Positions 1-55,755 of a DNA stretch of 64,000 nt are shown here, one piece after another (the stretch's first letter is position 1; each line of letters opens with the position of its first letter). The stretch lies in IMG/VR virus record IMGVR_UViG_3300043446_004437, positions 1-64,000 of that record; one strand, written 5' to 3'. Below the pieces are notes generated by a model. The model was not told the origin of the DNA, ran no database searches, and saw nothing but the letters and a program-made list of their open reading frames with translations. Origin of the DNA: a virus. The position numbers and the translations under genes are program-made.

Positions 1-53
1 GAGACGCTGTAGAAGCGATCTCTAATTAATGTTGTTACACCTGGTGTAGCCAT
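1..53 (-). CDS. Tail sheath-like protein, N-terminus only (cut by window edge)
   Basis: The start codon and first 17 codons are visible and the rest lies beyond position 1. The peptide begins MATPGVTTLIRDRFYSV. An early PGV after a short N-terminus is common in phage tail sheath proteins. A GGAGG ribosome site (GTCGGAGGTTC) lies 12-16 nt upstream. It follows the 156-926 gene in transcription order, close to another sheath-like gene (928-2814). The sheath call is an inference from the N-terminus and context. Confidence 0.45.
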   Translation of the reverse strand, partial: MATPGVTTLIRDRFYSV

Positions 54-88
54 GTTATTTTTGAACCTCCGACAGAATAACTCTTGTC

Positions 89-98
89 TTATAGTAAC
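89..98 (-). promoter_or_regulatory. TTACTAT motif, candidate late promoter
   Basis: On the minus strand this reads GTTACTATAA, 36 nt before the start codon at 53. It is one of about nine copies placed in the same way in the left arm. The promoter role is inferred from recurrence and position only. Confidence 0.4.
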
Positions 99-155
99 AA
101 GTAACTCATAAAAATAACTATGAATATATTAAGTAAGCTTAAATTAATATATGTT

Positions 156-926
156 TTAGTGCCTTGGAGTAGCGGTATTTTCCAAATCTATAAGATTAAC
201 TGGTATATCTTGATAGTTTGGAGTTGCGCCATTTAATAGTTCTGATTCGTAAGCCATAAATTGTCTTACGTCTACCGCGATCTTTTCTATTGTATTTGCC
301 TGTGCCGCAAAGGTTTTTTCAGTAGTCAGCATGTACGTTACGGTTCTTTTATGTACGTCTTTTACGTCTCTATTGACCTCTGAGTCCGAAAGCCTTCTTG
401 AATATACTAGTTCTGAAGCTCCTATCTTTTTAAAGATAGGCGTATATTCCAACATAAAATCTTCAAATGATTCTATTAAAGACTCAACAAGATAAGCGTT
501 GTCTTGGTCGTCGCAACCTGAGTCTGGGTTAGATCCTAGTCTTTTACCAACTGGAGACATAGCCGTGAATGCTACAACATTTTGAAATCTTTGCCCATAA
601 ACATATATATTATTATTTGTTATTTGTCTCATTCTAGGTTTTGGTTCTACAGAATGAGCTTTTCTTAACTCTAAAGAATAGACTATTATTGCGTCTGTTG
701 AATCATACTCTTGAGTTGCTGGATTAAACCAAGTAAAAGAATTTTCTGCGCTACTAGTTGCCTTTATAGGATAGTTTGGAAAACTTTGCTCCCATAAAGA
801 TTTTACTGCTGAAATGAATTCTAAATATGATAAATTTCCTTCAGACTGAAGAATATTTGCAAAACGTGATTTATCCATCGCATCTGCAAACCCAAGTATA
901 GGCATGTTTATCGGAAGTTGTGCCAT
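156..926 (-). CDS. Probable neck/tail completion protein (unknown family)
   Basis: A 256-residue soluble protein beginning MAQLPINMPILGF, with no signal peptide, membrane segment or enzyme motif that I recognise. It starts 1 nt after the stop of the sheath-like gene 928-2814 and lies between two sheath-like genes, where phages usually keep neck, tail-terminator or tube genes. The role is inferred from position only. It has ordinary AT-rich codon use like its neighbours. Confidence 0.45.
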   Translation of the reverse strand: MAQLPINMPILGFADAMDKSRFANILQSEGNLSYLEFISAVKSLWEQSFPNYPIKATSSAENSFTWFNPATQEYDSTDAIIVYSLELRKAHSVEPKPRMRQITNNNIYVYGQRFQNVVAFTAMSPVGKRLGSNPDSGCDDQDNAYLVESLIESFEDFMLEYTPIFKKIGASELVYSRRLSDSEVNRDVKDVHKRTVTYMLTTEKTFAAQANTIEKIAVDVRQFMAYESELLNGATPNYQDIPVNLIDLENTATPRH

Positions 927-927
927 G

Positions 928-2814: not shown

Positions 2815-2815
2815 T

Positions 2816-3190
2816 TTAAACCTGTTTTTCTCTAGTCGCCCCAACAGTCCAATATACTATTTTTCCATTTTTTCCTCTAATTGGGGCACTTGTATCTATT
2901 ACGTAAATTGTATATTTATTTGCGGCGTTAGGAATCATTTCATATATTCTATCGCCTTCTCCTGGATTAATTGAGCCTTCAAAATAATAAACAATATCAG
3001 AATTAACCAATATACCTTCTGCTTCTTCATCAACAGATTTGGCTAAAAATCTTCCTTTTTGAAAAACACTTCTAGTAGTTACTTGTTGTAAGTTTTCTTC
3101 GTAATTACCATTGGGTTTTTTTCTTTGTATAAAAACATCATAGCCCCATTTTTTTAAAATGTTTAAAAAAGATTTTTCAAGATTAATCAT
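2816..3190 (-). CDS. Head-tail connector-like hypothetical protein
   Basis: A 124-residue protein beginning MINLEKSFLNILKKWGYDVF. It looks like a compact beta-rich structural protein (FEGSINPGEGDRIYEMIP, then TIYVIDTSAP). Its ATG overlaps the end of the 3183-4082 gene by 8 nt and its stop is followed directly by the sheath-like gene, so it belongs to the neck or tail-completion block. A longer start at 3223 would overlap the upstream gene more and has no better ribosome site. I do not recognise the family. Confidence 0.5.
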   Translation of the reverse strand: MINLEKSFLNILKKWGYDVFIQRKKPNGNYEENLQQVTTRSVFQKGRFLAKSVDEEAEGILVNSDIVYYFEGSINPGEGDRIYEMIPNAANKYTIYVIDTSAPIRGKNGKIVYWTVGATREKQV

Positions 3191-4082
3191 AATTATGTAG
3201 ACCCCTCTTTGGCATTGGGTCATACGATAGTTCTTTCTTTCTGCTAGCCCCGTATATATCCCTTTCGGTTAGATATGTAACTCTTCCTGTGTCTGGGTCT
3301 ATATACTTGCCTGCATTTACTATTGGGAGTGTTGGTATACCTTTAGGCTGAACTCCTCTCGCCCCGGTTATTCCAGCTAACATTTCTTTTCTTAGAGCAG
3401 CGGCTATTTGACACCAGGTTACGGCGTTGCCTCTGCTTATATTTGTTCTTGGAAGATTTCGAGCAGTTACAGTTAAATCACCAAGCTGGACAGATACGTC
3501 ATCATCACCACCATAACTATATGTTCTACTTAAATCGCACGCTGTTGCTGCTTTTATATATTCCAAACTTGTGTAATTAATATTTGATGCTGAATAAAAA
3601 TCATTAAACCCATAAATATCTCTTACTTCCATAGAATGGAAATGTATTATTTCTCCTATTTCCAATAAAGATGCTTCAGGAAAATATGCTTGCATTTCTT
3701 CTGGGTTTAAATAAATTGGATCAACATCTGGTGCAAATGTAATTATTTCATCTGCTTTTAAAGTTATTTTTGGTTTGTATTCATCGGTTGATGTGCTGAC
3801 ATATAACTGTTGATTTACTGTTATAGAGCTTCCACCAGGGATATTGCCAATGAAAACTATTTTATAAGTGTCAGCTACAGTTGGAGTAAAATCATAATAA
3901 TATTCAGAGCTAGTTAATGATGTCGCGCTAGTTGAAACAATTTCTGTATTATCTGATTTATATATAGCGACCAAAACAGAAGTGGGGCTAACTAAAATCT
4001 GTTCACCAGTAAGGTTGTTTACGTCAACAAATTTTACCTTTATTCTTATTTTATCATTTACAAGAACCGTGTTTGTTAACAT
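3183..4082 (-). CDS. Neck/connector structural protein with Ig-like N-terminus
   Basis: 299 residues. Residues 1-95 read as an immunoglobulin-like beta sandwich (alternating V/I/Y strands, KIVFIGNIPGGSSITVNQQLY). The remainder is mixed and includes PEEMQAYFPEASLLEIGEIIHFHSME and a helical segment LEYIKAATACDLSRTY, reminiscent of head-tail connector subunits. It starts after a TTGGAGATTAA ribosome site, 24 nt downstream of a TTACTAT motif. The function is inferred from position between fibre and sheath genes. Confidence 0.5.
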   Translation of the reverse strand: MLTNTVLVNDKIRIKVKFVDVNNLTGEQILVSPTSVLVAIYKSDNTEIVSTSATSLTSSEYYYDFTPTVADTYKIVFIGNIPGGSSITVNQQLYVSTSTDEYKPKITLKADEIITFAPDVDPIYLNPEEMQAYFPEASLLEIGEIIHFHSMEVRDIYGFNDFYSASNINYTSLEYIKAATACDLSRTYSYGGDDDVSVQLGDLTVTARNLPRTNISRGNAVTWCQIAAALRKEMLAGITGARGVQPKGIPTLPIVNAGKYIDPDTGRVTYLTERDIYGASRKKELSYDPMPKRGLHNYD

Positions 4083-4105
4083 TTAATCTCCAAGTTTAAT
4101 ATTTT

Positions 4106-4115
4106 TTATAGTAAC
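4106..4115 (-). promoter_or_regulatory. TTACTAT motif, candidate late promoter
   Basis: It reads GTTACTATAA on the minus strand, 24 nt before the start at 4082. Confidence 0.4.
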
Positions 4116-4120
4116 TATAT

Positions 4121-4408
4121 TTAGCCTAATATAGATACTTCGCCATTTGTAGTAATAGATATTACTTGGGCGGACGCAATAGCGCTTACGTCTTCATCTA
4201 AAACTTCAATGGAAATAATTCCTTCTGGATTTACATCAATACTTAAAACGCCAATTGTAGTTGAATTAGAGTAATCTTCATTATTAGCGTAAAATACTGT
4301 TATATTGTTTAATACAATTGGATTTATTAAACTACTTGCGTATATTAAAATTGTTCCATTGTACGTAACATTAGAAGAATTATATGAAATAGGTTCGTTG
4401 TATCGCAT
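4121..4408 (-). CDS. Small beta-rich virion protein (unknown)
   Basis: A 95-residue protein beginning MRYNEPISYNSSNVTYNG, almost wholly made of short beta-strand-like segments (IEVLDEDVSAIASAQVISITTNG). It has no cysteines, signal peptide or membrane segment. It lies between the polyglycine adhesin gene and the neck genes and has its own TTACTAT motif 30 nt upstream. It is probably a small fibre or decoration protein. I do not recognise the family. Confidence 0.5.
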   Translation of the reverse strand: MRYNEPISYNSSNVTYNGTILIYASSLINPIVLNNITVFYANNEDYSNSTTIGVLSIDVNPEGIISIEVLDEDVSAIASAQVISITTNGEVSILG

Positions 4409-4437
4409 GTTTTTCCAAAATTAAAGATTGTATATAA

Positions 4438-4447
4438 CAATAGTAAT
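4438..4447 (-). promoter_or_regulatory. TTACTAT motif, candidate late promoter
   Basis: It reads ATTACTATTG on the minus strand, 30 nt before the start at 4408. Confidence 0.4.
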
Positions 4448-4475
4448 ATCAATTATTGTATTCGACCAGCGTATT

Positions 4476-5546
4476 TTAGAAAGTCACCGTTCCTGTTCCA
4501 GCAGTAAATTGATAATATCTATAGCTACCATAAGTAGATGTTGAGTATGTCAAACCTGCACCGATAGATGAAATAGTTGGCATGCTGCTTGAATAACGAA
4601 TGATTACAATTCCTGAACCACCAAGGCCAGGAGTGTTACTCCACGCAGAGTATTGTGCTCCACCTCCGCCTCCGCCTCCACCAGTGTTTGCTGTGCCGTT
4701 TGTACCGCTTCCACCGCTTGAACCTCCAGAACTAGCGCTTCCAGCATTATATTCAGCTCCACCTCCACCGCCTCCAGCACGACCAACCGCTGATCCAGTT
4801 ATGCTACTAGATATTCCAGCGCCACCATTACCTGCGTATGGCTGGTATCCGTTCAGAGTATACCCATTTCCCCCTGCTCCGCCTGCTCCACCACCACCAC
4901 CACCACCTGCCTCGCCGCCGGGTCCAAAACCACCAGAATAGCCGTATGAGCCAGCATTTCCACCTGTGCCACTCCCTGAATTAGCACCAGCCGTAGCGGT
5001 AACGCTACTAAACACCGAATTACTACCACCACCGCCAACTGTGACGGTAACAGAAGTTCCAGCGTTGATTGATAATGCTGATTCAAGCGGCTGACCACCG
5101 CCATTTGATTCGCCAGACACAGAAGAACGGTATCCTCCAGCACCACCGCCTCCTCCGCCATAATATGTTCCGCTGCTACCTCCAGTACGCCCAGTGCCGC
5201 CTCCACCAACAACAACATATTCCACAGAGAACGGTGGAGGAACCGGTGTAACAGAACCAGACGAAGAAGACGTAGCCGTTTCACTAGTCGATGATGTAGC
5301 TCTAACTGTAAAAGTATAGGCGGTTCCGTTAGTTAGACCAGTTACAGTAAGAGGAGAAGAAGACCCCGATGCCGTAAAATTTCCTGGCGATGAAGTCGCA
5401 GTATAAGTTACAGAACCAGATTTACCTTTATACGTCGATGCGGTAAAAGTTACTGTCGCCTGTGCGTTACCAGCGGTAGCCGAAACGCTCGTAGGAGCAT
5501 CGGGGATCCCCCCGCTGCGAGATGCAAAAATGCCTCTACTAGGCAT
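4476..5546 (-). CDS. FN3 plus polyglycine adhesin, probable tail-tip or fibre protein
   Basis: 356 residues. Residues 15-105 form a fibronectin type III domain (PDAPTSVSATAG ... LTNGTAYTFTVRATSS). Residues 110-330 form a glycine-rich domain with runs of GGGGG separated by short strands, ending GGSGIVIIRYSS. This is the layout of glycine-rich phage adhesins, whose polyglycine helices form the receptor-binding core. The start is the ATG inside TAATG, coupled to the stop of the upstream fibre gene. A GTG at 5615 in the same frame would overlap that gene by 70 nt and is less likely. It is probably a receptor-contact protein. Confidence 0.7.
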   Translation of the reverse strand: MPSRGIFASRSGGIPDAPTSVSATAGNAQATVTFTASTYKGKSGSVTYTATSSPGNFTASGSSSPLTVTGLTNGTAYTFTVRATSSTSETATSSSSGSVTPVPPPFSVEYVVVGGGGTGRTGGSSGTYYGGGGGGAGGYRSSVSGESNGGGQPLESALSINAGTSVTVTVGGGGSNSVFSSVTATAGANSGSGTGGNAGSYGYSGGFGPGGEAGGGGGGGAGGAGGNGYTLNGYQPYAGNGGAGISSSITGSAVGRAGGGGGGAEYNAGSASSGGSSGGSGTNGTANTGGGGGGGGAQYSAWSNTPGLGGSGIVIIRYSSSMPTISSIGAGLTYSTSTYGSYRYYQFTAGTGTVTF

Positions 5547-6916
5547 TAAGCGCTTAGATCTCCAATTAAAACCCATGTGTCCGTAGCACGTTTGGTTAAC
5601 GTTGCTGCAGACCATTGAGCACGTAGCTTAAGACCAGGGGTTCCGTTTACTGTTACACCACCAGCACCAGCTACCGTTATTTGACCAGCGCCAGTTTGTA
5701 AAATGTCGATGCGTGCACCTACAGGGAAAGCAACCGAAGTATTAGCTGGAACCGTAAGAGTTGTTGCCGAAGCATTACTTAATTCAACAAGTTTATTTTT
5801 ATCAGTTAAAACTAAAGTATAGCTTGCTGTTTGTGCATTTATTATAGTATCAGCTATCTTACCTTGATCAATTGCTGCTGTAGCAGATATATCAGCGTTA
5901 ACTATTGCTCCAGCAGCAATTTGTACGTTGCCAGTATTTGTAATAGTTACGTCACCAGAAACCGCTACAGATGTAGCAACGCCAGTTGCATTACCAACTA
6001 AAATATTGGCACTTGAAAGTGTTGCCAATTTGCTAAAATCAATTGCTGCAGACGCGTTTACGTCAGCGTTAACAATCGTCCCATCTGCAATCATTGTGCT
6101 AGTTACCGTGCCGGAATCTGCTGTTGTTACTATATTACCGTAAGTGGTTCCATCATTAGTGGATTCCCATATGTCATTGGTTTCATTCCAACGAACAGCA
6201 ACGGTGTTGGATAACCCGCGAAGAACTTCAATACCAGCATTTTCTGTTGGCGTACCGGTTGTAAAATCGCTGTTAAGGGTAACAATATTATCAGCAACGC
6301 TGAGAGTTGTGGTATTAATAGTTGTAGTTGTCCCAGAAACAGTTAAATTACCAGAAACAACTAAATTATTAGCAACTGTTATTAACCCTCCGGTTGAAGC
6401 AACTGTCAAGTTACCAGAAGATGTATTAATTGTTCCAGCTGCACTAGTGCCGATTGTAACAGTATTTGCTGTTACACCACCAAATGTTGGACTGTCAGAT
6501 GTGCCAACTCCAAGAGTTGTTCTAATTGCTGAAGTTGAGGCATCATCAAGAATGCTGCGTGCAGCAGATGTAACATCAGTTAAAGCAGCAGTGCCTGAAC
6601 CGGTAAAATATGGCATTTTGTCTGCTGCACTAGTTAACCCAGCAAGTGCGGTAAGTTCTGTATCAAGGGGTTGAGCGTTTGCATGAAGGCCATCTACATA
6701 ACCTTTTGTAGCAAGATCGGTAGAACTACTTCCTGCACTAGAAGCTACAATTGAACTAACATTTAAAACACCATTTGCTGCGATGTTTGCAACAACGTTA
6801 CCACTAGAATTTTTAAACTCTACTAGTGGTGCAGTAGCTCCGCTTGCTGCTTTAAATACAACGGATTCGTCGTATACTGTAATTTCTGGTGCGGTCTCAG
6901 TTCTTAAACGGGCCAT
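5546..6916 (-). CDS. Modular tail fibre protein
   Basis: 456 residues of low-complexity Thr/Ser/Ala/Asn-rich beta repeats typical of trimeric fibres. Residues 190-260 carry a module ([22 protein letters not shown] ... [19 protein letters not shown], shown in part) that recurs in the 13560-16974 and 18960-21536 genes. Residues 285-345 repeat the motif 'IVNADxxASAAIDxxK'. The C-terminus ([20 protein letters not shown]) is shared with the 18960-21536 protein. The ribosome site is TAGGAGTATC. It is one of at least eight fibre-type genes in this block. Confidence 0.75.
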
Positions 6917-6970
6917 GATACTCCTATTAAAATCGGTTTTGAAAATTATAGTATTGGGTACAAACCAATT

Positions 6971-6980
6971 TTATAGTAAT
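6971..6980 (-). promoter_or_regulatory. TTACTAT motif, candidate late promoter
   Basis: It reads ATTACTATAA on the minus strand, 55 nt before the start at 6916. A second partial copy (AATACTATAA) lies near 6946-6955, about 30 nt from the same start. Confidence 0.35.
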
Positions 6981-6995
6981 GAAATTATATAAATT

Positions 6996-7802
6996 TTATT
7001 GTGTTATTCTTTTTAAGAATTCTAACATTTTTCCAACGTATTTAATACGACCAAAATGTGTTAAATTAATAGTTGGATCAACCCAAACTTTTCCACCTAT
7101 TTTTTGCCAATATCTACAAAAGCCATAATCTTCCGACAAAAATCTACCATCTTCATCTACATAAGAATTAAACAACGCATAAGAAAAATTTTTTTCTACA
7201 CCATTTAAAGCACCAGTGTCATCATTATACTTTAATTTTTTGTATTTTTTAAACATCTTATCAAAGACTTGACGTTTAATTAACATAAAACCAGTCCCAG
7301 CTTCATAACACTCTATCGCACCATTATCGATATTTAATTGTGATTCTCCTGGTTTGACCATATGTACGACATATCTTGTGGCATACTCCATCAGATCTTT
7401 TGCTTCTAAACCTTCTGTTGCACCTTCTTTTATTTTATCCCAATTTATTTCTTTAATTGGATAAGAAGCTGTCACTACATCTTTATCATGCCACAAAAGT
7501 TTAAGAATTGCTTCTTTATCAAATTGTAAATCTACATCTATAAAAACCATATGGGTAAAAGACTCGTTGCCCATGAATTTAGCTACAAGATTATTTCTTG
7601 CACGATTAATTAAAGAATCAGAAATTGTACAAACTGAATACTTTAAACCAATTTCTTTATAATATAAAAGAGCTTGTAAAAAGCTCATCATAAAAGGTTC
7701 TGTTACGTGCGAATCATAACAAGGAAGAGCAAAAAAAACATTCCATTCTTGGATTTTTTCTTTTGGAATTGTTATATTAATTTGTTGTTGTTCTATAGAC
7801 AT
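6996..7802 (-). CDS. GT-A type glycosyltransferase
   Basis: 268 residues. After WNVFFALPCYDSHVTEPF comes a nucleotide-sugar type fold: SVCTISDSLINRARNNLV, then the DxD motif in MVFIDVDLQFDKEA (about residue 90), which would bind the metal and sugar nucleotide. The C-terminal FLSEDYGFCRYW is the acceptor-side 'ED' motif of family 2-like enzymes. It has no signal peptide or membrane segment. A second, more distant glycosyltransferase is at 28569-29339. Its place among fibre genes suggests it modifies virion proteins or host surface sugars, but the target is unknown. Confidence 0.75.
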   Translation of the reverse strand: MSIEQQQINITIPKEKIQEWNVFFALPCYDSHVTEPFMMSFLQALLYYKEIGLKYSVCTISDSLINRARNNLVAKFMGNESFTHMVFIDVDLQFDKEAILKLLWHDKDVVTASYPIKEINWDKIKEGATEGLEAKDLMEYATRYVVHMVKPGESQLNIDNGAIECYEAGTGFMLIKRQVFDKMFKKYKKLKYNDDTGALNGVEKNFSYALFNSYVDEDGRFLSEDYGFCRYWQKIGGKVWVDPTINLTHFGRIKYVGKMLEFLKRITQ

Positions 7803-7814
7803 AATGAAATTATA

Positions 7815-7946
7815 TCATAACACTAGAAAATATCCAAATTTATATAATATATTTATATCCCAAGAAGAGCCATTCCAAATCCAACTTCTTCCACCCGATG
7901 TATATATCTGATTACTTGTTGGGGAATCTGGAAAGTCAATAGCCAT
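7815..7946 (-). CDS. Small fibre-type protein
   Basis: A 43-residue gene beginning MAIDFPDSPTSNQIYTSGGR. A start like MAIDFP(N/D)SPT followed by a tryptophan-rich W.W.G..W strand is common at the N-terminus of phage and viral fibre proteins. Here only that short unit is present, so the gene may be a free unit or a truncated fibre. A good ribosome site (TAGGAG) lies 9 nt before the ATG. It lies between the glycosyltransferase and the 7958-8611 fibre gene. Confidence 0.6.
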   Translation of the reverse strand: MAIDFPDSPTSNQIYTSGGRSWIWNGSSWDINILYKFGYFLVL

Positions 7947-7957
7947 TAAAATATCTC

Positions 7958-8611
7958 CTAATTATCTGAGTATCCATAAACACGATAGAATCCTGTTATA
8001 GAAGCAGTAGCAATCCATGTTAAACCATCATTTGCTTCTGCAACATGATAAGTTCCTCCCCCGCTAATACTTGCATAACTATTAGCATCATCGCAACCAA
8101 AACCAGTCAGTGCAAAAGTTGTTCTTGTTGTTGCTTCAGTTGGGTTAAAAATTGTCATATTGGCAGAATATAGACGAATTGTAGATGTTGCACCAATATT
8201 TACTGAAGTTCCTGCATTTGTTTGATTAATTGCTGTTGAACCACTATATGGATATCTTTGAACATTTCCATAATAGCTAGAACCTGTCCTAGCCGAGCCA
8301 GCATTATTAACGCGAACTGAAATTTGACCATCAGAGCAACTTGTTATTTGAAATATAACTTGATATGTTTTATAAGTTGAAGTAAAAACCCCAGTTGCCA
8401 TGCTAACTGATGTAGAACTACTAAAACTTGCTCCAGCAATATATTGCAAACCATTCTGCGTAACCCATGCACTTCCGTTATAAGCAGCCAAACGGTTGGT
8501 ATCGGTTTCAAAAATGAGTTGACCAACATAAGGAACAGATGGGCGAGTAGATGAAGTAACGACTCCTGGTCTAATCGAAGATGATGCGCCGAGAACAGAT
8601 GAAAGAGGCAT
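7958..8611 (-). CDS. Fibre/virion structural protein
   Basis: 217 residues. Residues 1-55 (SSIRPGVVTSSTRPSVPYVG, QLIFETDTNRLAAYNGSAWV) are a fibre shaft motif with the 'P.Y.GQLIFETDTN' pattern found in many phage fibres. The rest is a compact beta-sandwich-like C-terminal domain (NDGLTWIATASITGFYRVYGYSDN). The ATG lies within TAATG at the stop of the previous gene, so the two are translationally coupled. It is probably a receptor-facing or fibre-tip protein. Confidence 0.65.
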   Translation of the reverse strand: MPLSSVLGASSSIRPGVVTSSTRPSVPYVGQLIFETDTNRLAAYNGSAWVTQNGLQYIAGASFSSSTSVSMATGVFTSTYKTYQVIFQITSCSDGQISVRVNNAGSARTGSSYYGNVQRYPYSGSTAINQTNAGTSVNIGATSTIRLYSANMTIFNPTEATTRTTFALTGFGCDDANSYASISGGGTYHVAEANDGLTWIATASITGFYRVYGYSDN

Positions 8612-8829
8612 TATTCAACAACCTCAGGTGCTACTGGTGAAGTGAAATCTTCTGATTCTTCGTCGTAGATAAAGCCAATACCAGCGTAGGTCTTGCCCTC
8701 AGTGTCAAAGAAGGTTTCAACCCAACGTCCTGGATAACGATCAGGGTTGGCCTTAAGAAAGTCCTCCATGACCACTGCGACATGGGTGACTATATTATTT
8801 TCATCTATTTGTGCAAAGTATTGACTCAT
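8611..8829 (-). CDS. Small conserved fibre-associated protein
   Basis: A 72-residue protein beginning MSQYFAQIDENNIVTHVAVV. The pattern 'AxIDENNIVTxV...G.WVET...TYAGIGF.YD' is a known small protein of marine and freshwater phage fibre loci. Its role is not settled (fibre assembly or tip are both suggested). It has a strong AGGAGG site 5-6 nt from the ATG and an acidic C-terminus. It is coupled to the downstream fibre gene. Confidence 0.65.
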   Translation of the reverse strand: MSQYFAQIDENNIVTHVAVVMEDFLKANPDRYPGRWVETFFDTEGKTYAGIGFIYDEESEDFTSPVAPEVVE

Positions 8830-49203: not shown

Positions 49204-49224
49204 TAATACTCATATAAAGATATA

Positions 49225-49256
49225 AAAAAACCCCCCGGTATATCCAGGGGGTTTTT
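49225..49256. terminator. Two-way terminator between convergent genes
   Basis: AAAAAACCCCCC and GGGGGTTTTT arms with a short loop lie between genes that converge. The A-run on one side and T-run on the other allow it to stop transcription from both directions. Confidence 0.75.
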
Positions 49257-49276
49257 CTTTTTATATATGTTTAATA

Positions 49277-49471
49277 TTAGTCATCGTAGCCATAGTTATC
49301 AAAATCATAATCCTCAACATCAACATACATAGATTTAGCCCCATAGTATGTCTTAGAGTCAAATTGATAAAAGATATCATCTTCAACATCTAACCCTTCA
49401 TAATCCTCAAACATATCCAGTTCGAGATTATCTTGGGATTCTTTTACCAACATATTCTTGTTGTCACTCAT
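49277..49471 (-). CDS. Highly acidic small protein
   Basis: A 64-residue gene with about a third Asp/Glu and many tyrosines (LELDMFEDYEGLDVEDDIFY; VDVEDYDFDNYGYDD). It has an AAGGATAAGAAA site. Its composition fits a DNA-mimic or a protein-binding inhibitor such as an anti-restriction factor. That is only a guess from charge. It is a minus-strand gene within the plus-strand block, so it is regulated separately. Confidence 0.5.
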   Translation of the reverse strand: MSDNKNMLVKESQDNLELDMFEDYEGLDVEDDIFYQFDSKTYYGAKSMYVDVEDYDFDNYGYDD

Positions 49472-49879
49472 TTTCTTATCCTTTTGTATTAGGCATTGAT
49501 GGTTATATGTTTAACGTACATGATATGTATATGACAGAGAAGATACTAGCAAAGCATGTGTGTTATAGCAACCTTTTGTAGAGAAATATTTCTATCTTTT
49601 TTCGCCGGCGATTTCCCTATAGGTATAAAAACATAGAAAAAAATTTTTCATATAAAAACATATATAAAAAAAACTAATAGGCTGAAAAAAAGAAAAAAAT
49701 TAGGGCCAGTACTAGTGGGTATTTGTTGAACCTTAAAGGTTTTAACGAGCCCACCCGGGTATACCCCATACAGTCTGATTGGATCGACTATAACTGTCCA
49801 TGATCCCTGGTTATTGATTACCCAGGTTAAATAATGTAATCAGAGAGACACTATCTCTCTATAATAAAAAGTGTAATAA
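49472..49879. other. Non-coding stretch of about 400 nt with inverted repeats
   Basis: No convincing gene on either strand. It holds the palindromes AGAAATATTTCT (near 49581) and CGCCGGCG (near 49603), an A-rich run at 49630-49700, and beyond it a two-level inverted repeat near 49715-49755 (AGTGGG with CCCAC, and within it AACCTTAAAGGTT). Further repeats follow at 49805-49825 (CCTGG...CCAGG) and 49843-49860 (AGAGA...TCTCT). The GC content changes here from the AT-rich to the GC-richer arm. It is a likely promoter or replication control region. Confidence 0.4.
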
Positions 49880-50483: not shown

Positions 50484-50556
50484 ATTCCCCTGGGCCAGTA
50501 ACCCTCTGCTGGCCTGGGGGATCTTTTTTTTATGACTAGGGAAAAGGTCTCTAGTT
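50484..50556 (+). terminator. Terminator plus CTAG hairpin, cassette 1
   Basis: A GATTCCCCTGGGCCAG / CTGGCCTGGGGGATC stem with T8 lies at 50484-50530, followed directly by TATGACTAG and a small stem ACTAGGGA / TCTCTAGT with loop AAAGG (50535-50555). It ends one gene and leads the next. Confidence 0.8.
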
Positions 50557-50609
50557 AGCAGGTGTGCTTTTGCTGCTTGTGTATGTGTACTCCACAAAAG
50601 GAGAACGAA

Positions 50610-51113
50610 ATGAGCACATACTTAGTAGTGATTGCATTTCTTGTCATTTCCATGGTTCCACAGCTTTTGGCAGTGTGGTACATCAATTGGGATTTCAAGA
50701 AGGAAGCCATTGCAGAACAGTTCGTTAAGAACATGATTTCTGCTATGGATGAAATTCTTGCCCAGAAGGAATTGCAAGAAAAGGTAAACCAGTTTGTAGA
50801 AGTAGGTTTTCCAACACCTTTTGTAGTTGGCATCACTGAAAACGATGTTGATTACTACAATTGGATTGATAACTACGCTTTTGCAAATGAAGAAGAAATC
50901 AGTGATCTTGATTTCTTTGCGGAATTACTTGAAAGTGAAATTGAACGTAAATCTTGGTCAGGAGTTCCTGACGGTAACGGGATTAAGCGCTACAATGGCA
51001 CTATCAAGTGTGGGTACCAGTTGTATCATGATGGGAAATTCGTTTCTCATAACAAGATGGACTTTTTCCGTTCACACGGAATCCGCGGAAACAAGCCAAA
51101 AACACACAAGTAA
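50610..51113 (+). CDS. Membrane-anchored early protein (unknown)
   Basis: 167 residues from the ATG at 50610, 5-6 nt after AAAGGAGAACG. A GTG at 50562 would add a Cys-rich stretch without a ribosome site. Residues 2-24 (STYLVVIAFLVISMVPQLLA) form a membrane segment. The rest is soluble and acidic, with DVDYYNWIDNYAFANEEEIS. It is probably a cytoplasmic domain tethered to the membrane. The function is not known. Confidence 0.55.
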   Translation: MSTYLVVIAFLVISMVPQLLAVWYINWDFKKEAIAEQFVKNMISAMDEILAQKELQEKVNQFVEVGFPTPFVVGITENDVDYYNWIDNYAFANEEEISDLDFFAELLESEIERKSWSGVPDGNGIKRYNGTIKCGYQLYHDGKFVSHNKMDFFRSHGIRGNKPKTHK

Positions 51114-51173
51114 TTACTAACCCGTATACATACACGGGCTGTAAGAGAACACCTGAAGATAGTCAAATAAAAA

Positions 51174-51240
51174 GATTCCCCTGGGGACTTCGGTCCCTGG
51201 GGGATCTTTTTTTTATGACTAGTTAATAGACCTCAGAAAG
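51174..51240 (+). terminator. Terminator plus TATGACTAG element, cassette 2
   Basis: GATTCCCCTGGGGAC / GTCCCTGGGGGATC with a TTCG loop (51174-51205) and T8, then TATGACTAG. The small downstream stem is weak in this copy (ACTAGTTAATAGACCTCAG). A further inverted repeat CCCGT...ACGGG lies at 51121-51138. Confidence 0.75.
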
Positions 51241-51247
51241 GAGGTGA

Positions 51248-51427
51248 ATGCTTACCAGCAATATGCATGGGCAACGGCCTACGCCATATTGTCACATCAC
51301 GGGTGAAGGACTCATGGTGGACAAATGGGGTGACCCGTTGGATTCGTGGATAAAGTTCGTCAATGGAGAAGCCATATGTGGCCATCGCCATGCTGACGGG
51401 ACAGACCACGAGTTCCCAGCAAACTGA
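51248..51427 (+). CDS. Small His/Cys-containing protein
   Basis: A 59-residue gene beginning MLTSNMHGQRPTPYCHITGE. Histidines and cysteines in PYCHITGE and AICGHRHADGTDHE could bind a metal. The AAAGGAGGTGA site lies only about 3 nt from this ATG. The next in-frame ATG at 51263 is too far (about 18 nt), so the exact start is open. It is bracketed by two terminator cassettes, so it is its own transcription unit. Confidence 0.45.
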   Translation: MLTSNMHGQRPTPYCHITGEGLMVDKWGDPLDSWIKFVNGEAICGHRHADGTDHEFPAN

Positions 51428-51478
51428 CTAAGAGTCAGGGCAGTGGTGACGCCTGGTAACAGAACAATCACCAACTAA

Positions 51479-51543
51479 GAAACCCCTGGAGGCCTTTGCC
51501 TCTGGGGGTTTCTTTTTTATGACTAGGGAATAGGTCTCTAGTT
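51479..51543 (+). terminator. Terminator plus CTAG hairpin, cassette 3
   Basis: GAAACCCCTGGAGGC / GCCTCTGGGGGTTTC stem (51479-51512) with T6, then TATGACTAG and the small stem ACTAGGGA / TCTCTAGT with loop ATAGG (51522-51542). Confidence 0.8.
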
Positions 51544-51563
51544 TTAGAGTAAAGGAGAAAGAA

Positions 51564-51779
51564 ATGGATGAGTTCTTTGAGCTCATCGAAGAGATCTATG
51601 ATCTCCAGATGAAGTGGGAGAATCTGTTGTTTGAACAACAGGTTTTGCTGTTGAGTAGGGTGAGTTGTTCAAGGGGAAGGTACGATGAGATAAATCGTGA
51701 ATTGCGTGAAGTTTGCGATGAGTGCAGTCGTATTGGAGTGTTGTTGGGAGAGAAGGAATTGGAACTCGAGAAGTTTTAA
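51564..51779 (+). CDS. Small coiled-coil early protein
   Basis: A 71-residue protein of one charged helix (MDEFFELIEEIYDLQMKWEN; LREVCDECSRIGVLLGEKEL) with an AAAGGAGAAAG site. It has two cysteines spaced CxxxC. It could bind a host protein as a small takeover peptide, as many phage early genes do, but no family is recognised. Confidence 0.5.
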   Translation: MDEFFELIEEIYDLQMKWENLLFEQQVLLLSRVSCSRGRYDEINRELREVCDECSRIGVLLGEKELELEKF

Positions 51780-51823
51780 TAACTCAAAGTGCAAGACCAA
51801 GAAGTGGGTATCAGGTCAAAGAG

Positions 51824-51877
51824 AAAAGGGTCCTTTTGGGCCCTTTTTTCTTTATGACTAGTGGATAGGCCACTAAT
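51824..51877 (+). terminator. Terminator plus CTAG hairpin, cassette 4
   Basis: AAAAGGGTCC / GGGCCCTTTT stem (51824-51847) is a different terminator from the others, yet is followed by the same TATGACTAG element. The small stem is ACTAGTGG / CCACTAAT with loop ATAGG (51857-51877), one mismatch. Confidence 0.75.
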
Positions 51878-51898
51878 CTTTAATTAAGGAGAAGAATA

Positions 51899-52225
51899 AT
51901 GAAAGAAATGGAATGGTGTGGATGCATGGATGCGCGTTCATGGAAAGATGGCTTTGCTGACATCTTTAGCAGGGAGCTAGTAGAAGGTAAAAGAAAAGGT
52001 GAGTTGTATGAATTGTTTGAAGTGAAAAGCTTTGAAGAATTCAAGGATGAGTTAAGTGATATTGCATGGGGCATAGGACGTATTGTTGGTGGTTTGTTTG
52101 GTAAGCCATATGTACGGATTATTGGTGATGCAAAGCACTACAACAAGGTTGTTTCTCGTATAAATGAATATGGTTGTATGAGGAGCAAGCGATTCTTGGT
52201 TAACGGCGAATGTCCAAACAAGTGA
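51899..52225 (+). CDS. Hypothetical early protein
   Basis: A 108-residue protein beginning MKEMEWCGCMDARSWKDGFA, with an AAGGAGAAGAAT site. It has an N-terminal CGC and helical segments (ELFEVKSFEEFKDELSDIAW), then a small glycine-rich strand region (GIGRIVGGLFGKPYVRIIGD). It is followed at 15 nt by the HAD phosphatase gene. I cannot name a family. Confidence 0.5.
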   Translation: MKEMEWCGCMDARSWKDGFADIFSRELVEGKRKGELYELFEVKSFEEFKDELSDIAWGIGRIVGGLFGKPYVRIIGDAKHYNKVVSRINEYGCMRSKRFLVNGECPNK

Positions 52226-52239
52226 TTAAGGAGAACAAC

Positions 52240-52671
52240 ATGAAAGAAAAAGCGATAATCGTTGACATTGATGGCACTTTATTTGAAGAGGCGCCAGGCT
52301 GGACAATGGAGACTGATGCATGGTGGGTGGAAGAAACACTTAAGATGCGTGAGTTGGAAGTTGGGATTGGATTAATTAAGGTATTTAAGGAGATGGGATT
52401 TAAGTTGGTTTTCTTGACAGCAAGAGGACAAAGCTGCAAGAAGAACACTTGGATCAGATTTAAGAAAGCAGGCATTCATAGCTTGGTGGACTCGATGTGG
52501 CACAGGCCAATTAAGTGGAGCGAATTACCACCAGTTGAATACAAGAGGCTTATGATGCAACGGATTATGAAAAAGTATGATGTTGTATTTGCTATGGATG
52601 ATAGCGATAAGAACCTGGAAATGTTCAAGGGTTTGGGAATTAAAGTATTCGATGCAAAGAAATGGTGGTAA
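52240..52671 (+). CDS. HAD-superfamily phosphatase
   Basis: 143 residues from ATG 52240, 6 nt after AAGGAGAACAA. The aspartate nucleophile motif is VDIDGTLF (first and second Asp), motif II is VFLTARGQSC, a lysine follows near KRLMMQRIMKK, and the metal acids are in FAMDDSDKNLEMFKGLG. This is a small capless HAD, like polynucleotide 3'-phosphatase or nucleotidase domains of phages. An earlier ATG at 52210 lies within the previous gene. It is followed by a possible ADP-ribosyltransferase at 2 nt, so the two may act in one pathway. Confidence 0.75.
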   Translation: MKEKAIIVDIDGTLFEEAPGWTMETDAWWVEETLKMRELEVGIGLIKVFKEMGFKLVFLTARGQSCKKNTWIRFKKAGIHSLVDSMWHRPIKWSELPPVEYKRLMMQRIMKKYDVVFAMDDSDKNLEMFKGLGIKVFDAKKWW

Positions 52672-52673
52672 AC

Positions 52674-53078
52674 ATGAAAACGTTGGAACAAATCAAGCAA
52701 TACATTCTTAATACTGGTGTACTGTGGCACCTTACCACAGAGGCTAACAGTAGGCGGATAGTTAATGGTGGGATGGTGCTTACGCCTACCAACAACAGGG
52801 TTTATTTCTATGTAAATCCATCGGTGACACCATCAGACTATGATCTTTGCAGGTCGTATGTTAATGCAGATGGGGTGTATGTGTACATGCGTAACCTTGA
52901 TATGTGGCAGGTAGAGGTTACTCAAGAGATGCTTGACAACATGCATCTAGACATGGCGTTGAATGAGTTCCACCCAGGTGCAGCTGTCTACATTGAGGGT
53001 GTTGAAATCAAAGCTACCCTCCATACTCCTAGCGCACGAAAGATCGGTGTGCCATGTACTGAGTACCGCAACAAATAA
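52674..53078 (+). CDS. Possible ADP-ribosyltransferase-fold protein
   Basis: About 134 residues. The segment GVLWHLTTEANSRRIVNGGM resembles the first strand of ART-fold enzymes (hydrophobic-W/Y-H-x-T, then N..xI...G). RVYFYVNPSVTPSD follows at the place of the aromatic second motif, and a glutamate near WQVEVTQEML could be the third. Together they fit an H-Y-E type ADP-ribosyl or RNA 2'-phosphotransferase fold. I rate this as a lead, not a firm call. It lies 2 nt after the HAD gene. An ATG at 52662 is also in frame. Confidence 0.45.
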   Translation: MKTLEQIKQYILNTGVLWHLTTEANSRRIVNGGMVLTPTNNRVYFYVNPSVTPSDYDLCRSYVNADGVYVYMRNLDMWQVEVTQEMLDNMHLDMALNEFHPGAAVYIEGVEIKATLHTPSARKIGVPCTEYRNK

Positions 53079-53215
53079 GGCGAAACCCTACCAAGGGTCA
53101 CTGTGGGATGACTGCCCACGGTCTGAAGAAGCCAAGTCAAATTAAACAACAGTGCTACTGTTCTTTACTTGCTGTCCAGGTTGTTAAGTAAACAACAAAC
53201 AACAAGGAGAAAAAC
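53079..53215 (+). promoter_or_regulatory. Structured spacer before the 53216 gene
   Basis: It contains two small hairpins (ACCCT...AGGGT near 53086-53100, GTGGG...CCCAC near 53103-53119) and the left arm of a 31-bp inverted repeat (53152-53182), followed by the AAGGAGA ribosome site. Confidence 0.4.
53152..53182 (+). repeat. Left arm of 31-bp inverted repeat
   Basis: It pairs with 53509-53539 at 30 of 31 positions. The one difference would be a G-U pair in RNA. Key part: CTTGCTGTCCAGG. Confidence 0.85.
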
Positions 53216-53500
53216 ATGCACATATTGTCAGAAATCATCCTGGTGCTCTTCGCCGTATCGGTGATTGGCATCTTCGTTCTCACCATTGTTGGTGAGGTGG
53301 CATGGAGCTTGCTGGCTATTGCCGGCAAGATCAACAGGAAGTACGGTTCCTACGAAGCGGTGAAGGCTGCTGCGTTTGGGGTGGTGTACTACATGCTGCT
53401 GGCAAGTCAGAGTAACTCAACGTTTGTCGTGTGGTTTCTCACAATCTTCATGACATTGGGTTTTCTGAATCGTGTACGACAGAAGGCAGTAAGTAAGTAA
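53216..53500 (+). CDS. Small membrane protein framed by inverted repeats
   Basis: A 94-residue protein with two hydrophobic segments (residues 5-35, SEIILVLFAVSVIGIFVLTI; and 58-85, FGVVYYMLLASQSNSTFVVW), so probably an integral membrane protein with a basic tail. It has an AAGGAGAAAAAC site. Its stop lies in a run of five GTAA units. Matching arms of an inverted repeat flank the gene exactly, so it may be a mobile or RNA-folded cassette. The function is not known. Confidence 0.55.
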   Translation: MHILSEIILVLFAVSVIGIFVLTIVGEVAWSLLAIAGKINRKYGSYEAVKAAAFGVVYYMLLASQSNSTFVVWFLTIFMTLGFLNRVRQKAVSK

Positions 53501-53508
53501 GTAAGTAA
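53489..53508 (+). repeat. GTAA tandem repeat, five units
   Basis: Five GTAA units run through the stop codon of the 53216 gene, up to the right inverted-repeat arm. Slippage here would not change the protein much, as stops occur often in the repeat. Confidence 0.8.
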
Positions 53509-53539
53509 AACCTGGACAGCAAGTAAAGGACAGTAGCAC
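53509..53539 (+). repeat. Right arm of 31-bp inverted repeat
   Basis: Complement of 53152-53182. It lies directly after the 53216 gene and 24 nt before the next ATG. Key part: CCTGGACAGCAAG. Confidence 0.85.
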
Positions 53540-53562
53540 ATAAACAAACAAAGGAGAAAGAA

Positions 53563-53808
53563 ATGTCAGCAAACCCTGAGCAGCAGGCTCGTGACGCCGT
53601 CATGAGCAAGTTGAAGATGATCAAGTCCTTGGACTTGACCCCAAATGAGTTGGAGTCCACCGAGCAGGAGGAGATCGAGTACCGTGCGATCTACGAGCTC
53701 GTGCTCAACGAGGGCATCGCACGTGGTTTCGAGCCTCGCGTGGTCTGCGCGATCCTTGGTCAGGCTCTCAACCTTGCTGCTGCAACCTGGTGGATCAGCC
53801 GGAAGTAG
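53563..53808 (+). CDS. Small helical early protein
   Basis: An 81-residue protein beginning MSANPEQQARDAVMSKLKMI, rich in Glu/Ala, with a hydrophobic C-terminal helix (VVCAILGQALNLAAATWWIS). It is markedly more GC-rich than its neighbours. It has an AAAGGAGAAAG site and ends before cassette 5. I do not recognise the family. Confidence 0.5.
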   Translation: MSANPEQQARDAVMSKLKMIKSLDLTPNELESTEQEEIEYRAIYELVLNEGIARGFEPRVVCAILGQALNLAAATWWISRK

Positions 53809-53825
53809 CTGATTGCAATAAAAGT

Positions 53826-53888
53826 AACCCCTGGGGACTTCGGTCCCTGGGGGTTTCTTTTTTATGACTAGGGAAAAGGTTTCTAGTT
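53826..53888 (+). terminator. Terminator plus CTAG hairpin, cassette 5
   Basis: AACCCCTGGGGAC / GTCCCTGGGGGTT with a TTCG loop (53826-53854), T6, TATGACTAG and the small stem ACTAGGGA / TTTCTAGT with loop AAAGG (53867-53887). The 3' strand differs from cassette 1 but keeps pairing through G-U. Confidence 0.8.
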
Positions 53889-53914
53889 TACAGTTAAACA
53901 AAGGAGAAAAACAA

Positions 53915-54217
53915 ATGATGAAACTAATTGAAGTTCGTCGTGACAACGAGGAGACGGAAATTCTTCTGCTCGATGTCATTTCAACCCATGACGAATGGGA
54001 AAAGATGAACGAAGAAGAACACAGGCGAGTCGATGAGTTGCTTGCTAACCAGCGAAACGACGAGTCCGGCATGCTCGTCGCTCGAGACCCAGATGATGGG
54101 TCTATGATCATCTTCCCCGAAGATACGGTTGTGGCAACACTTGACAAGTACAACTTTGCGACTGTCGTCTGGGCTGGCAAGTTTCCAAATTTTGTGTGCA
54201 GAATTTTGCGTAAGTAA
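53915..54217 (+). CDS. Acidic early protein (unknown)
   Basis: 100 residues from the ATG at 53915, after AAAGGAGAAAAACAA. It is charged (RRDNEETEILLLDVISTHDE; NEEEHRRVDELLANQRNDES), then a beta stretch (IIFPEDTVVATLDKYNFATV). An upstream start at 53864 would lie inside the terminator cassette. There is no known family or motif. Confidence 0.5.
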   Translation: MMKLIEVRRDNEETEILLLDVISTHDEWEKMNEEEHRRVDELLANQRNDESGMLVARDPDDGSMIIFPEDTVVATLDKYNFATVVWAGKFPNFVCRILRK

Positions 54218-54243
54218 TCGCAATCATCGTTGCAATGCAGTGA

Positions 54244-54280
54244 GATAGCATAAGAGTTGGTTCGTCCTGCTTGTGCTATC
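54244..54280 (+). ncRNA. Intergenic 11-bp hairpin, copy A
   Basis: GATAGCATAAG (54244-54254) pairs with CTTGTGCTATC (54270-54280). Its flanks GTGAGA and CAACTCTGT are shared with copy B at 54651-54693. No T-run follows, so it is not a simple terminator. Confidence 0.6.
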
Positions 54281-54325
54281 AACTCTGTTGTGCAACATCA
54301 ACAGATAACAGAAACAGAGATAACA

Positions 54326-54625
54326 ATGGCATTGTACAAGACAATGAACAACAAAGAAAAGCGTCGTCACACAGCCGAGTTTGTTGGCAAACTTTGGAAT
54401 GAGTCAGACCGACTCGTATCCGAGGCTGGCAAAATCGTGCTTGGTTGCATTCATAGCGAAGTGCAACTTGCTGGCGACAAAGAGAATCCACGCAACATCA
54501 AGTTCGACCTCAATGACGAACTCCGTGATGTCGTCGAGGCTTTCCGCACGAACTACATACTCATCAGGCACTACTCGAAGGTTCTTGGCGAACTGGATGC
54601 GTTGGTTGCCGAGGAGCAGAAGTAA
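54326..54625 (+). CDS. Small helical early protein
   Basis: 99 residues from the ATG at 54326, with only a weak AGAGATAAC site, so the hairpin upstream may affect translation. It is a charged helical protein (EKRRHTAEFVGKLWNESDRL; VVEAFRTNYILIRHYSKVLG), ending AEEQK. A longer frame to 54257 would run through the hairpin. I do not recognise the family. Confidence 0.5.
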   Translation: MALYKTMNNKEKRRHTAEFVGKLWNESDRLVSEAGKIVLGCIHSEVQLAGDKENPRNIKFDLNDELRDVVEAFRTNYILIRHYSKVLGELDALVAEEQK

Positions 54626-54650
54626 CCGTAATCCGATTCGTACTCGGTGA

Positions 54651-54693
54651 GAGCGCACAAGAGATTTCCACACTAGGTATCGCTTGTGCGTTC
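54651..54693 (+). ncRNA. Intergenic 11-bp hairpin, copy B
   Basis: GAGCGCACAAG (54651-54661) pairs with CTTGTGCGTTC (54683-54693). Compared with copy A the stem bases differ on both sides, but all 11 pairs are kept. The loop is longer (21 versus 15 nt). Confidence 0.6.
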
Positions 54694-54761
54694 AACTCTG
54701 TGGTATGAACCATAGACACAAGTTTGCAAATGCAAACTCGTGAACAGACAAGGAGAAACAA

Positions 54762-54953
54762 ATGGCTAGGATCAAGTCGGCCACCACGATCAACCCCAAG
54801 CGGTTGCGCAGGCCCAAGCACAGGGAGCTCTTGCAGCTCTTGCCCATGATGGAGTCCCTCCACGCGATGAACGGGTATGGCATCCGTACTCCAGAGGACT
54901 ACCGCCACCACTGGCGCAAGCCAAAGAACTCAAAGCCCAAGCTCAAGAAGTAG
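54762..54953 (+). CDS. Small basic protein
   Basis: A 63-residue, strongly basic gene (MARIKSATTINPKRLRRPKH; HHWRKPKNSKPKLKK) with an AAGGAGAAACAA site. Its charge suggests nucleic-acid binding. It uses CGG as an ordinary codon (in KRLRRP), unlike the left arm. The family is not known. Confidence 0.5.
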   Translation: MARIKSATTINPKRLRRPKHRELLQLLPMMESLHAMNGYGIRTPEDYRHHWRKPKNSKPKLKK

Positions 54954-54980
54954 CTGTCGGCTTAAAATCGCAAACTACCC

Positions 54981-55031
54981 AAGGACAAAGTCCTCCTGCC
55001 ATTGAGCAGGTAAAAAGGAGGTGAATTAAAA
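54981..55031 (+). promoter_or_regulatory. Twin-hairpin leader with anti-Shine-Dalgarno, copy A
   Basis: AGGAC-aaa-GTCCT is followed by CCTGC...GCAGG and then the AGGAGG ribosome site (55016-55021). The joining CCTCCT (54992-54997) is fully complementary to AGGAGG, so two exclusive folds are possible: two hairpins with a free ribosome site, or a long-range pairing that hides it. The leader at 55395-55445 has the same plan. Confidence 0.6.
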
Positions 55032-55313
55032 ATGAGCGACAAGACCTACACTCTCAACGAAATCGTTGAGTCAGTCAGGAAGCACTACAACTTTCTGTTT
55101 TGGCAGACGAACGGCGAGCGAACGACTGCTTCAGCTTCTGAAGCACTCCTCGTACTTGCTGTTATCGCCGGCCTTGACGAGGCAGCACATGCCAAGTGGA
55201 CGGTTGCGGACATCACGCAGATTCTTGTGGACGGCAACGTCATGCCACAAGAGGAGGCGCAGAAGTTCGCCACCAGCTGCGTTGATGAGTACAACAACGT
55301 AACGTTGTACTAA
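55032..55313 (+). CDS. Early protein (unknown) under a switch-like leader
   Basis: A 93-residue protein beginning MSDKTYTLNEIVESVRKHYN. It is helical, with the segment LLVLAVIAGLDEAAHAKWTV and an acidic C-terminus. AAAGGAGGTGA lies 10 nt before the ATG. It ends before cassette 6. I do not recognise the family. Confidence 0.5.
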   Translation: MSDKTYTLNEIVESVRKHYNFLFWQTNGERTTASASEALLVLAVIAGLDEAAHAKWTVADITQILVDGNVMPQEEAQKFATSCVDEYNNVTLY

Positions 55314-55327
55314 GAAAAACAAAGAAT

Positions 55328-55389
55328 AACCCCTGGGGACTTCGGTCCCTGGGGGTTTTCTTTTTTATGACTAGAGGAAGAGCCTCTAG
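55328..55389 (+). terminator. Terminator plus CTAG hairpin, cassette 6
   Basis: AACCCCTGGGGAC / GTCCCTGGGGGTT with a TTCG loop (55328-55356), T6, TATGACTAG and a perfect small stem CTAGAGG / CCTCTAG with loop AAGAG (55371-55389). Confidence 0.8.
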
Positions 55390-55394
55390 CAAAC

Positions 55395-55445
55395 CAAGGG
55401 CTTTGCCCTCCTGCTTTATGGCAGGTTAAAGGAGGTGAACTGAAA
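55395..55445 (+). promoter_or_regulatory. Twin-hairpin leader with anti-Shine-Dalgarno, copy B
   Basis: GGGC-ttt-GCCC, then CCTGC...GCAGG, then AGGAGG (55430-55435). The joining CCTCCT (55407-55412) is complementary to the ribosome site. Compared with copy A the first stem changed on both sides (AC/GT to GC/GC), keeping the pairing. Confidence 0.6.
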
Positions 55446-55589
55446 ATGAAAGTCAACACCTACGCAAGCGAGCGTGGTTACGGCAACTTCTGCGATGCAT
55501 GCATCCAGAGGGAGTCCGAAAACCTCGTGCAGGTGGAGTTCGTCTGTGAGACGGACGCACCGTGCGCAGGCTGCTCCGAAAAGGAGTAG
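55446..55589 (+). CDS. Small zinc-site protein under a switch-like leader
   Basis: A 47-residue gene beginning MKVNTYASERGYGNFCDACI. FCDACI gives one CxxC, and VCETDAPCAGCSEKE gives a second group (C-x5-C-x2-C). Four cysteines could hold one zinc. It has AAAGGAGGTGA 9 nt before the ATG and is a complete unit between two terminators. The family is not recognised. Confidence 0.55.
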   Translation: MKVNTYASERGYGNFCDACIQRESENLVQVEFVCETDAPCAGCSEKE

Positions 55590-55665
55590 TTTGCGATTGC
55601 GAAGTATGGGCTAGTACCCCATCCAGAGCAGTAGTGACGCTTTGTTAAAAATAATCACTCGTTAA

Positions 55666-55730
55666 GATTCCCCTGGGGGCTTATGCCCCTGGGGGGTCTT
55701 TTTTTTATGACTAGTGGATAGGCCACTAGT
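55666..55730 (+). terminator. Terminator plus CTAG hairpin, cassette 7
   Basis: GATTCCCCTGGGGGC / GCCCCTGGGGGGTC with a TTAT loop (55666-55698), T8, TATGACTAG and the perfect small stem ACTAGTGG / CCACTAGT with loop ATAGG (55710-55730). Confidence 0.8.
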
Positions 55731-55755
55731 TTATGCTCAAACAAAGGAGAAAACA

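Follow-up and report, generated by a model that had tools for sequence, protein, structure and literature searches.

A repeated hairpin element behind terminators in the accessory gene region of a large uncultivated phage

What does a short sequence do that returns behind seven terminators within about 5 kb of a phage genome? The window analysed here, the first 64,000 nucleotides of the 216,024-base IMG/VR record IMGVR_UViG_3300043446_004437, contained seven copies of TATGACTAG, most of them opening a small hairpin. We propose, with a probability of about 0.5, that each copy is a composite terminator and start module resembling the PeSL (promoter early stem-loop) of T4-type phages, in which each cassette mRNA would begin with the hairpin at its 5′ end.

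Seven elements behind terminators

Exact copies of TATGACTAG occurred seven times in the whole record, each directly 3′ of a T-run, with starts at 50531, 51214, 51518, 51853, 53863, 55366 and 55706. Only 0.37 copies were expected per window, and none of 100 shuffled sequences reached seven. An earlier note on this DNA had reported seven such sites after terminator T-runs, and all of them were found at the positions it gave. A covariance model recovered the same seven, with no further significant match. All seven elements of the window lay directly behind a terminator (in the numbering used below, the first T of TATG is position 1):

50486..50530, plus strand: terminator 1 and T-run, 15 pairs
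50531..50556, plus strand: element 1, TATGACTAG and hairpin, stem 50534-50542 / 50548-50556; fold z −3.9; covariance model 51.7 bits
51177..51213, plus strand: predicted terminator 2 and T-run
51214..51239, plus strand: element 2, TATGACTAG without the standard hairpin; covariance model 28.8 bits
51477..51517, plus strand: predicted terminator 3 and T-run
51518..51543, plus strand: element 3; fold z −2.4; covariance model 51.5 bits
51828..51852, plus strand: terminator 4 (GGGTCC-TTTT-GGGCCC, an unrelated sequence, read directly) and T-run TTTTTTCTT
51853..51878, plus strand: element 4, behind the unrelated terminator, with one C.A stem mismatch; fold z −2.4; covariance model 47.5 bits
53826..53862, plus strand: predicted terminator 5 and T-run
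53863..53888, plus strand: element 5; fold z −2.2; covariance model 50.3 bits
55328..55365, plus strand: predicted terminator 6 and T-run
55366..55391, plus strand: element 6; fold z −4.2; covariance model 43 bits
55669..55705, plus strand: predicted terminator 7 and T-run
55706..55731, plus strand: element 7; fold z −4.8; covariance model 51 bits

RNAfold predicted a stem for six of the seven copies, at most 9 bp long and pairing positions 4-12 with 18-26, with a 5-nt loop and z-scores from −2.2 to −4.8. The earlier note had correctly given six stems and the loops AAAGG, ATAGG and AAGAG, but had drawn the stems slightly too short. Leaders in the window, from element to start codon, measured 34-80 nt. 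No match in the window exceeded the gathering score of any Rfam family.

T-run and hairpin in related phages

Scanning viral contigs with the strict element pattern gave no match, and relatives were reached through RecA instead, as 80 loci of the same lineage taken from IMG/VR. In 33 of these loci 182 distinct elements were found, every copy on the same strand as RecA, with the general form T-run–T(AT/GA)GnnTAG–hairpin. The core variants behind T-runs downstream of RecA were TATG[AGC]CTAG, TATGGGTAG, TATGGATAG and TGAGGATAG, and additional core classes were TACGGATAG and TATAGGTAG. The T-run, T1, G4, T7 and A8 were invariant in the main classes and G9 was nearly so (a few copies had TAA), whereas positions 5-6 varied even inside a single genome. 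When whole records of relatives were scanned, one segment held as many as about 20 co-oriented copies, and counts elsewhere were near the control level. A Shine-Dalgarno sequence and start codon followed the element at a median of 68 nt (mostly 40-80 nt). A leader-peptide reading of the ATG in TATGACTAG was rejected, since the TGAGGATAG class has no ATG.

A strong terminator hairpin stood 5′ of 157 of the 182 elements. The other 25 missed the strong-terminator criterion, and about 15 of them had no credible hairpin but still kept the T-run; terminator and element are thus selected separately, as the earlier note had argued from the unrelated terminator of cassette 4. Because the hairpin-less copies keep it, the T-run is part of the element itself. 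The 182 elements had been selected for T-runs, and the core was therefore searched again without that condition: at least five T in the preceding nine bases were found at 94 of 95 plus-strand TATGGGTAG sites, versus 0 of 11 minus-strand sites. Three terminator-less copies in locus L025 (17516-17576, 17840-17892 and 17960-18017) had the upstream sequence GATGAGTACATNACTAGTAAATyCA in common.

In 30 in-register sequences, standard pairs filled 83% of the stem cells, compared with 30-48% when the partner was slid, and the covariation score exceeded that of 500 out of 500 shuffles. Kinship of the sequences inflates shuffle tests, whereas the slid control preserves kinship and agrees. When sequences were taken without selection, all 49 copies of the class paired to 69% in this register versus 32-44% in others. 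Pair 5-25 occurred as A-U, C-G and G-C. Pairing was therefore conserved in the relatives while the bases changed, which the earlier note had claimed and had proposed to check in this way. In every class the best-helix scores were above those of downstream sequence after shuffling. Several diverged classes (TATGGG, TGAGGA and TACGGA) also had a hairpin at the same place. Mean pairing probability was alike in four classes: the T-run and T1 were mostly unpaired, pairing rose at G4, and a loop lay at 13-16.

Mismatches in the stem were of the G·U type in 45 cases versus 14 of A·C. At fixed columns the asymmetry was 27/34 (G/T columns) versus 3/12 (A/C columns; P = 0.001), and in the TATGGG class it was weak (25 to 17). 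Because G·U mismatches exceed A·C, the comparison favours selection on the plus-strand RNA rather than on a DNA palindrome, and the same asymmetry disfavours a protein-binding DNA palindrome, which the earlier note had considered. The hairpin very probably matters as RNA.

Further structured leader segments recurred 3′ of elements, of the forms GGGTGCGTCCCTGTC...GCTAATCAGCATGCTG and GCCAAGTCCTGCATCA...GATGTGGGC (L044 13988-14052, L046 13079-13143, L048 14348-14412; also L048, L052, L054 and L060), and are possibly further RNA modules. By inspection, some leaders of the TATGGG class appeared to carry a second hairpin.

Cassettes, first unit and genome

The genes between the elements were small and mostly without assigned function, and relatives had the same flanking genes with different cassette content. 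The cassettes of the window were:

50610..51113, plus strand: cassette 1, one gene without Pfam or PHROG match
51248..51427, plus strand: cassette 2, open reading frame of 59 amino acids (aa)
51564..51779, plus strand: cassette 3, open reading frame of 71 aa, with a 47% identical homologue in L025
51899..53808, plus strand: cassette 4, genes for 108 aa, a HAD/PNKP-type phosphatase (52240-52671), 138 aa, 94 aa and 81 aa
53915..55313, plus strand: cassette 5, four small open reading frames
55446..55589, plus strand: cassette 6, a Cys-rich protein of 47 aa
55756..57557, plus strand: cassette 7, a LysM protein, then a PcfJ-like protein

The 71-aa gene kept its element in both contexts, with a strong terminator 5′ of it in the window but not in L025. 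Over 800 nt, from TTTAACGAG to the exact end of TATGACTAG (50539), the window's first unit was 95.8% identical to that of L040, and RecA of the two phages was only about 74% identical. Shared tracts of 200 nt or more numbered 76, of which 23 began and 21 ended near an element, versus 7.8 and 7.4 for shifted positions; many began 10-13 nt 5′ of TATG and ended at TAG. Shared DNA thus has a tendency to start at the T-run and stop at TAG, which indicates that the elements are the joints in an array of swappable cassettes. Strict permutation of cassette order was rejected: shared families showed gain and loss, with no clear contradiction of order.

A single-copy conserved region, here called P0, lies 5′ of the array:

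49640..49765, plus strand: P0, with A-tracts, TAGTGGGTAT and TTTAACGAG...GGGTATACCCC; 24 distinct copies in the window and relatives

P0 was non-coding, occurred once per genome and contained TTTAACGAG...GTATACC with A-tracts, and similarity to relatives broke there. It presumably serves the first unit as a master promoter or regulatory region, and a replication origin is the other candidate function beside a master promoter. The first gene of the window (around 49.9-50.46 kb) followed P0 with no element between. In six relatives (L048, L051, L052, L054, L058 and L065) the first element stood 45-60 nt 3′ of P0, mostly without a terminator hairpin. On the minus strand, 49224-49258 was a strong terminator of a leftward 64-aa gene (49277-49471) found in the closest relatives only.

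The suggestion that the element is used in all early units did not hold. It was limited to seven accessory units in about 5 kb, and the unit at 49.9-50.46 kb and other rightward genes to about 103 kb were without it. Because a near-complete close relative of 204,904 bases (RecA 90% identical) had no array and not a single element, the array is dispensable.

The genome is probably circular or permuted, of about 207 kb, since the ends of the record overlap each other. When 1-8647 of the window was aligned with 207378-216024 of the record, the two matched at the start and then the gap-free alignment stopped, which suggests strain variation or assembly overlap. RecA, DNA polymerase III alpha, a DnaB-type helicase, RNR, ThyX, an AAA protein and a sigma region-4 protein were encoded. 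The last of these (G000 133004-133138, minus strand; 169 aa) was present in eight of nine relative records searched and is probably a late sigma factor of the phage group. No DNA-level similarity to cultured phages was found. A search for the terminase in cellular genomes, made to find the host, gave no match, and RecA gave only 53-59% matches there, in mixed phyla, mostly Alphaproteobacteria. Among the proteins of L007-L011, one genome protein matched the proteasome subunit family PF00227 and others matched ThiF and Prok-JAB domains; these are unusual in phages and hint weakly, if at all, at an actinobacterial host.

Function of the element and known systems

In the proposed composite module, each copy would join two gene cassettes that are independent of each other. 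The upstream transcript would end at the GC hairpin and T-run, and the same T-run with TATGnnTAG would form the start element of the next unit, with 5′ ends expected at TATG. A promoter has little room 3′ of the hairpin, and an independent transcript must therefore begin at the hairpin or before it. From G4 on, the new transcript would fold the hairpin at its 5′ end or no more than 3 nt from it, usually with 40-80 nt left to the start codon, and sequestering of the 5′ end would protect the mRNA or standardise translation start. The invariant 5′ arm (T-run, T1, G4 and TAG) would additionally be read as sequence by a polymerase or factor, in all likelihood as a start signal of another type than sigma-70. 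Since each cassette would carry its own start plus the common joint, cassettes would be swappable between phages, like PeSL modules.

Several observations weigh against this proposal. A promoter start with a 5′ hairpin had been suggested in the earlier note, and structured RNA was indeed found at the start of each unit, but no sigma-70-like −35/−10 was found at any element of the window. A promoter start is still possible; the T-run supplies no −10, and any promoter would therefore be of unknown type. The sigma-like protein is not an obvious reader, and was rejected as the sole one, since the array-free relative has it too. RNA polymerase beta′ gave no match in the genome while the positive control matched; in a search for a single-subunit RNA polymerase the control matched nowhere, so that search carries no weight. 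In copy 2 (51214) the standard stem is not formed, and the ACCTC of its 3′ part pairs with the Shine-Dalgarno sequence GAGGT. The first element inside the P0 leader of six relatives is explained equally well by read-through, and the excess of tract ends at elements is in part a trivial effect, as similarity will run on into any site that is conserved.

Read-through is itself a possible alternative, somewhat doubtful as a whole, and stays alive because P0 is a good master-promoter candidate. The array would then be one RNA from P0. In this RNA, nascent or long, the U-run with the structured element would serve either as a put/nut-like antitermination site renewed after each terminator or for processing, with cleavage inside the U-run giving the upstream RNA a 3′ hairpin and the downstream RNA a 5′ hairpin. 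Beside the six leaders just named, it would account for selection on the plus-strand RNA and for the want of a recognisable promoter at the elements, and a single-stranded U-rich stretch next to a stem suits endonucleolytic processing. It is weakened by the stems, which at 5-9 bp are short for an RNase III substrate, and a terminator at 157 of 182 joints would be costly if always passed. One copy per gene would also be unnecessary, given that one HK022 put site works over 10 kb (PMC9378689).

The composite module was also weighed against two readings in which the RNA has no role of its own. An improbable one takes the element as a DNA site for binding, nicking or recombination (a palindromic operator or a REP/attC-like hairpin) that serves cassette regulation or movement, with the RNA hairpin incidental. 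Exchange tracts do end at the element, and GTAG/CTAG followed by a hairpin is superficially REP-like; the G·U over A·C asymmetry, the free change of stem bases inside one genome with pairing kept, and the single orientation and fixed offset from the T-run in all copies speak against it. The genome had no match to the Y1 transposase (PF01797), with a positive control, and the REP/transposase reading was rejected. Still less probable is an element without function, a by-product of recombination kept alike by repeated exchange and gene conversion. It fits the exchange of cassettes and the near identity of terminators among copies, but conversion would copy both arms alike, and instead the 5′ arm is invariant while the loop-side stem bases covary within one genome; moreover, the diverged classes keep the hairpin in its place.

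A more far-reaching claim is made tentatively, as one that may well fail. The elements might constitute a new family of cis-acting structured RNA start elements, spread through a lineage of large uncultivated phages. In these elements the T-run would be both transcript end and obligatory part of the start signal, the reader would not be the sigma-70 promoter system, and the whole would act as a plug-and-play joint for exchanging accessory genes. A T-run that is both stop and start signal would raise the question of how transcription restarts beside a terminator without a recognisable promoter. The element gives a sequence-level rule for packing and swapping small accessory genes, which in other phages often act against the host, in a group of large environmental phages. 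As an RNA element supported by covariance, it also locates cassette arrays where gene content says little, as in the genomes of uncultivated phages.

Of the known repeated elements, the start-associated inverted repeats SAS and ESAS of Cluster K mycobacteriophages and Microbacterium Cluster EF phages (PMC3203893, PMC7302621, PMC11373665) resemble the element in having a left arm better conserved than the right. The ESAS is a 17-bp imperfect repeat beside the 13-bp SAS, with SigA-like hexamers inside (PMC11373665), and changes in its arms do not support RNA pairing, according to the authors (PMC3203893). Here, in contrast, the arms covary, there is no SAS, the leaders have an ordinary AAGGAG, a T-run is always present and the 9-bp stem has a 5-nt loop. 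The covariance model found no match in phage AnnaSerena, whose repeats lack a T-run; on pairing, on the SigA-like hexamers and on this result, membership was rejected.

The HK022 put RNA is likewise a cis-acting phage RNA structure in terminator-rich early transcripts. It measures about 70 nt, has two stem-loops and occurs at two sites per genome, putL and putR (PMC9378689). It differs from the one small 9-bp hairpin per gene unit in the window. The ompA leader is a single host leader, whereas the element here is repeated and tied to terminator T-runs, with a putative role in stabilisation. Both place a hairpin close to or at the 5′ end, ahead of the ribosome-binding site, as in other mRNA-stabilising 5′ stem-loops (reviewed in PMC7509114).

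In the PeSL, too, a terminator stem-loop leads straight into the next unit of small genes (PMC4503421). Many copies lie in a variable region and are linked to gene shuffling between related phages, and a comparable density and comparable exchange boundaries were found here. The PeSL has a recognisable early sigma-70 promoter, whereas T-run–TATGnnTAG has no sigma-70 motif and no conserved −10. We know of no conserved second RNA hairpin in the PeSL, and here a covarying one is added. Because the promoter test failed and the RNA hairpin is an addition, the element is not filed as a member of the PeSL; the PeSL is its closest working analogue.

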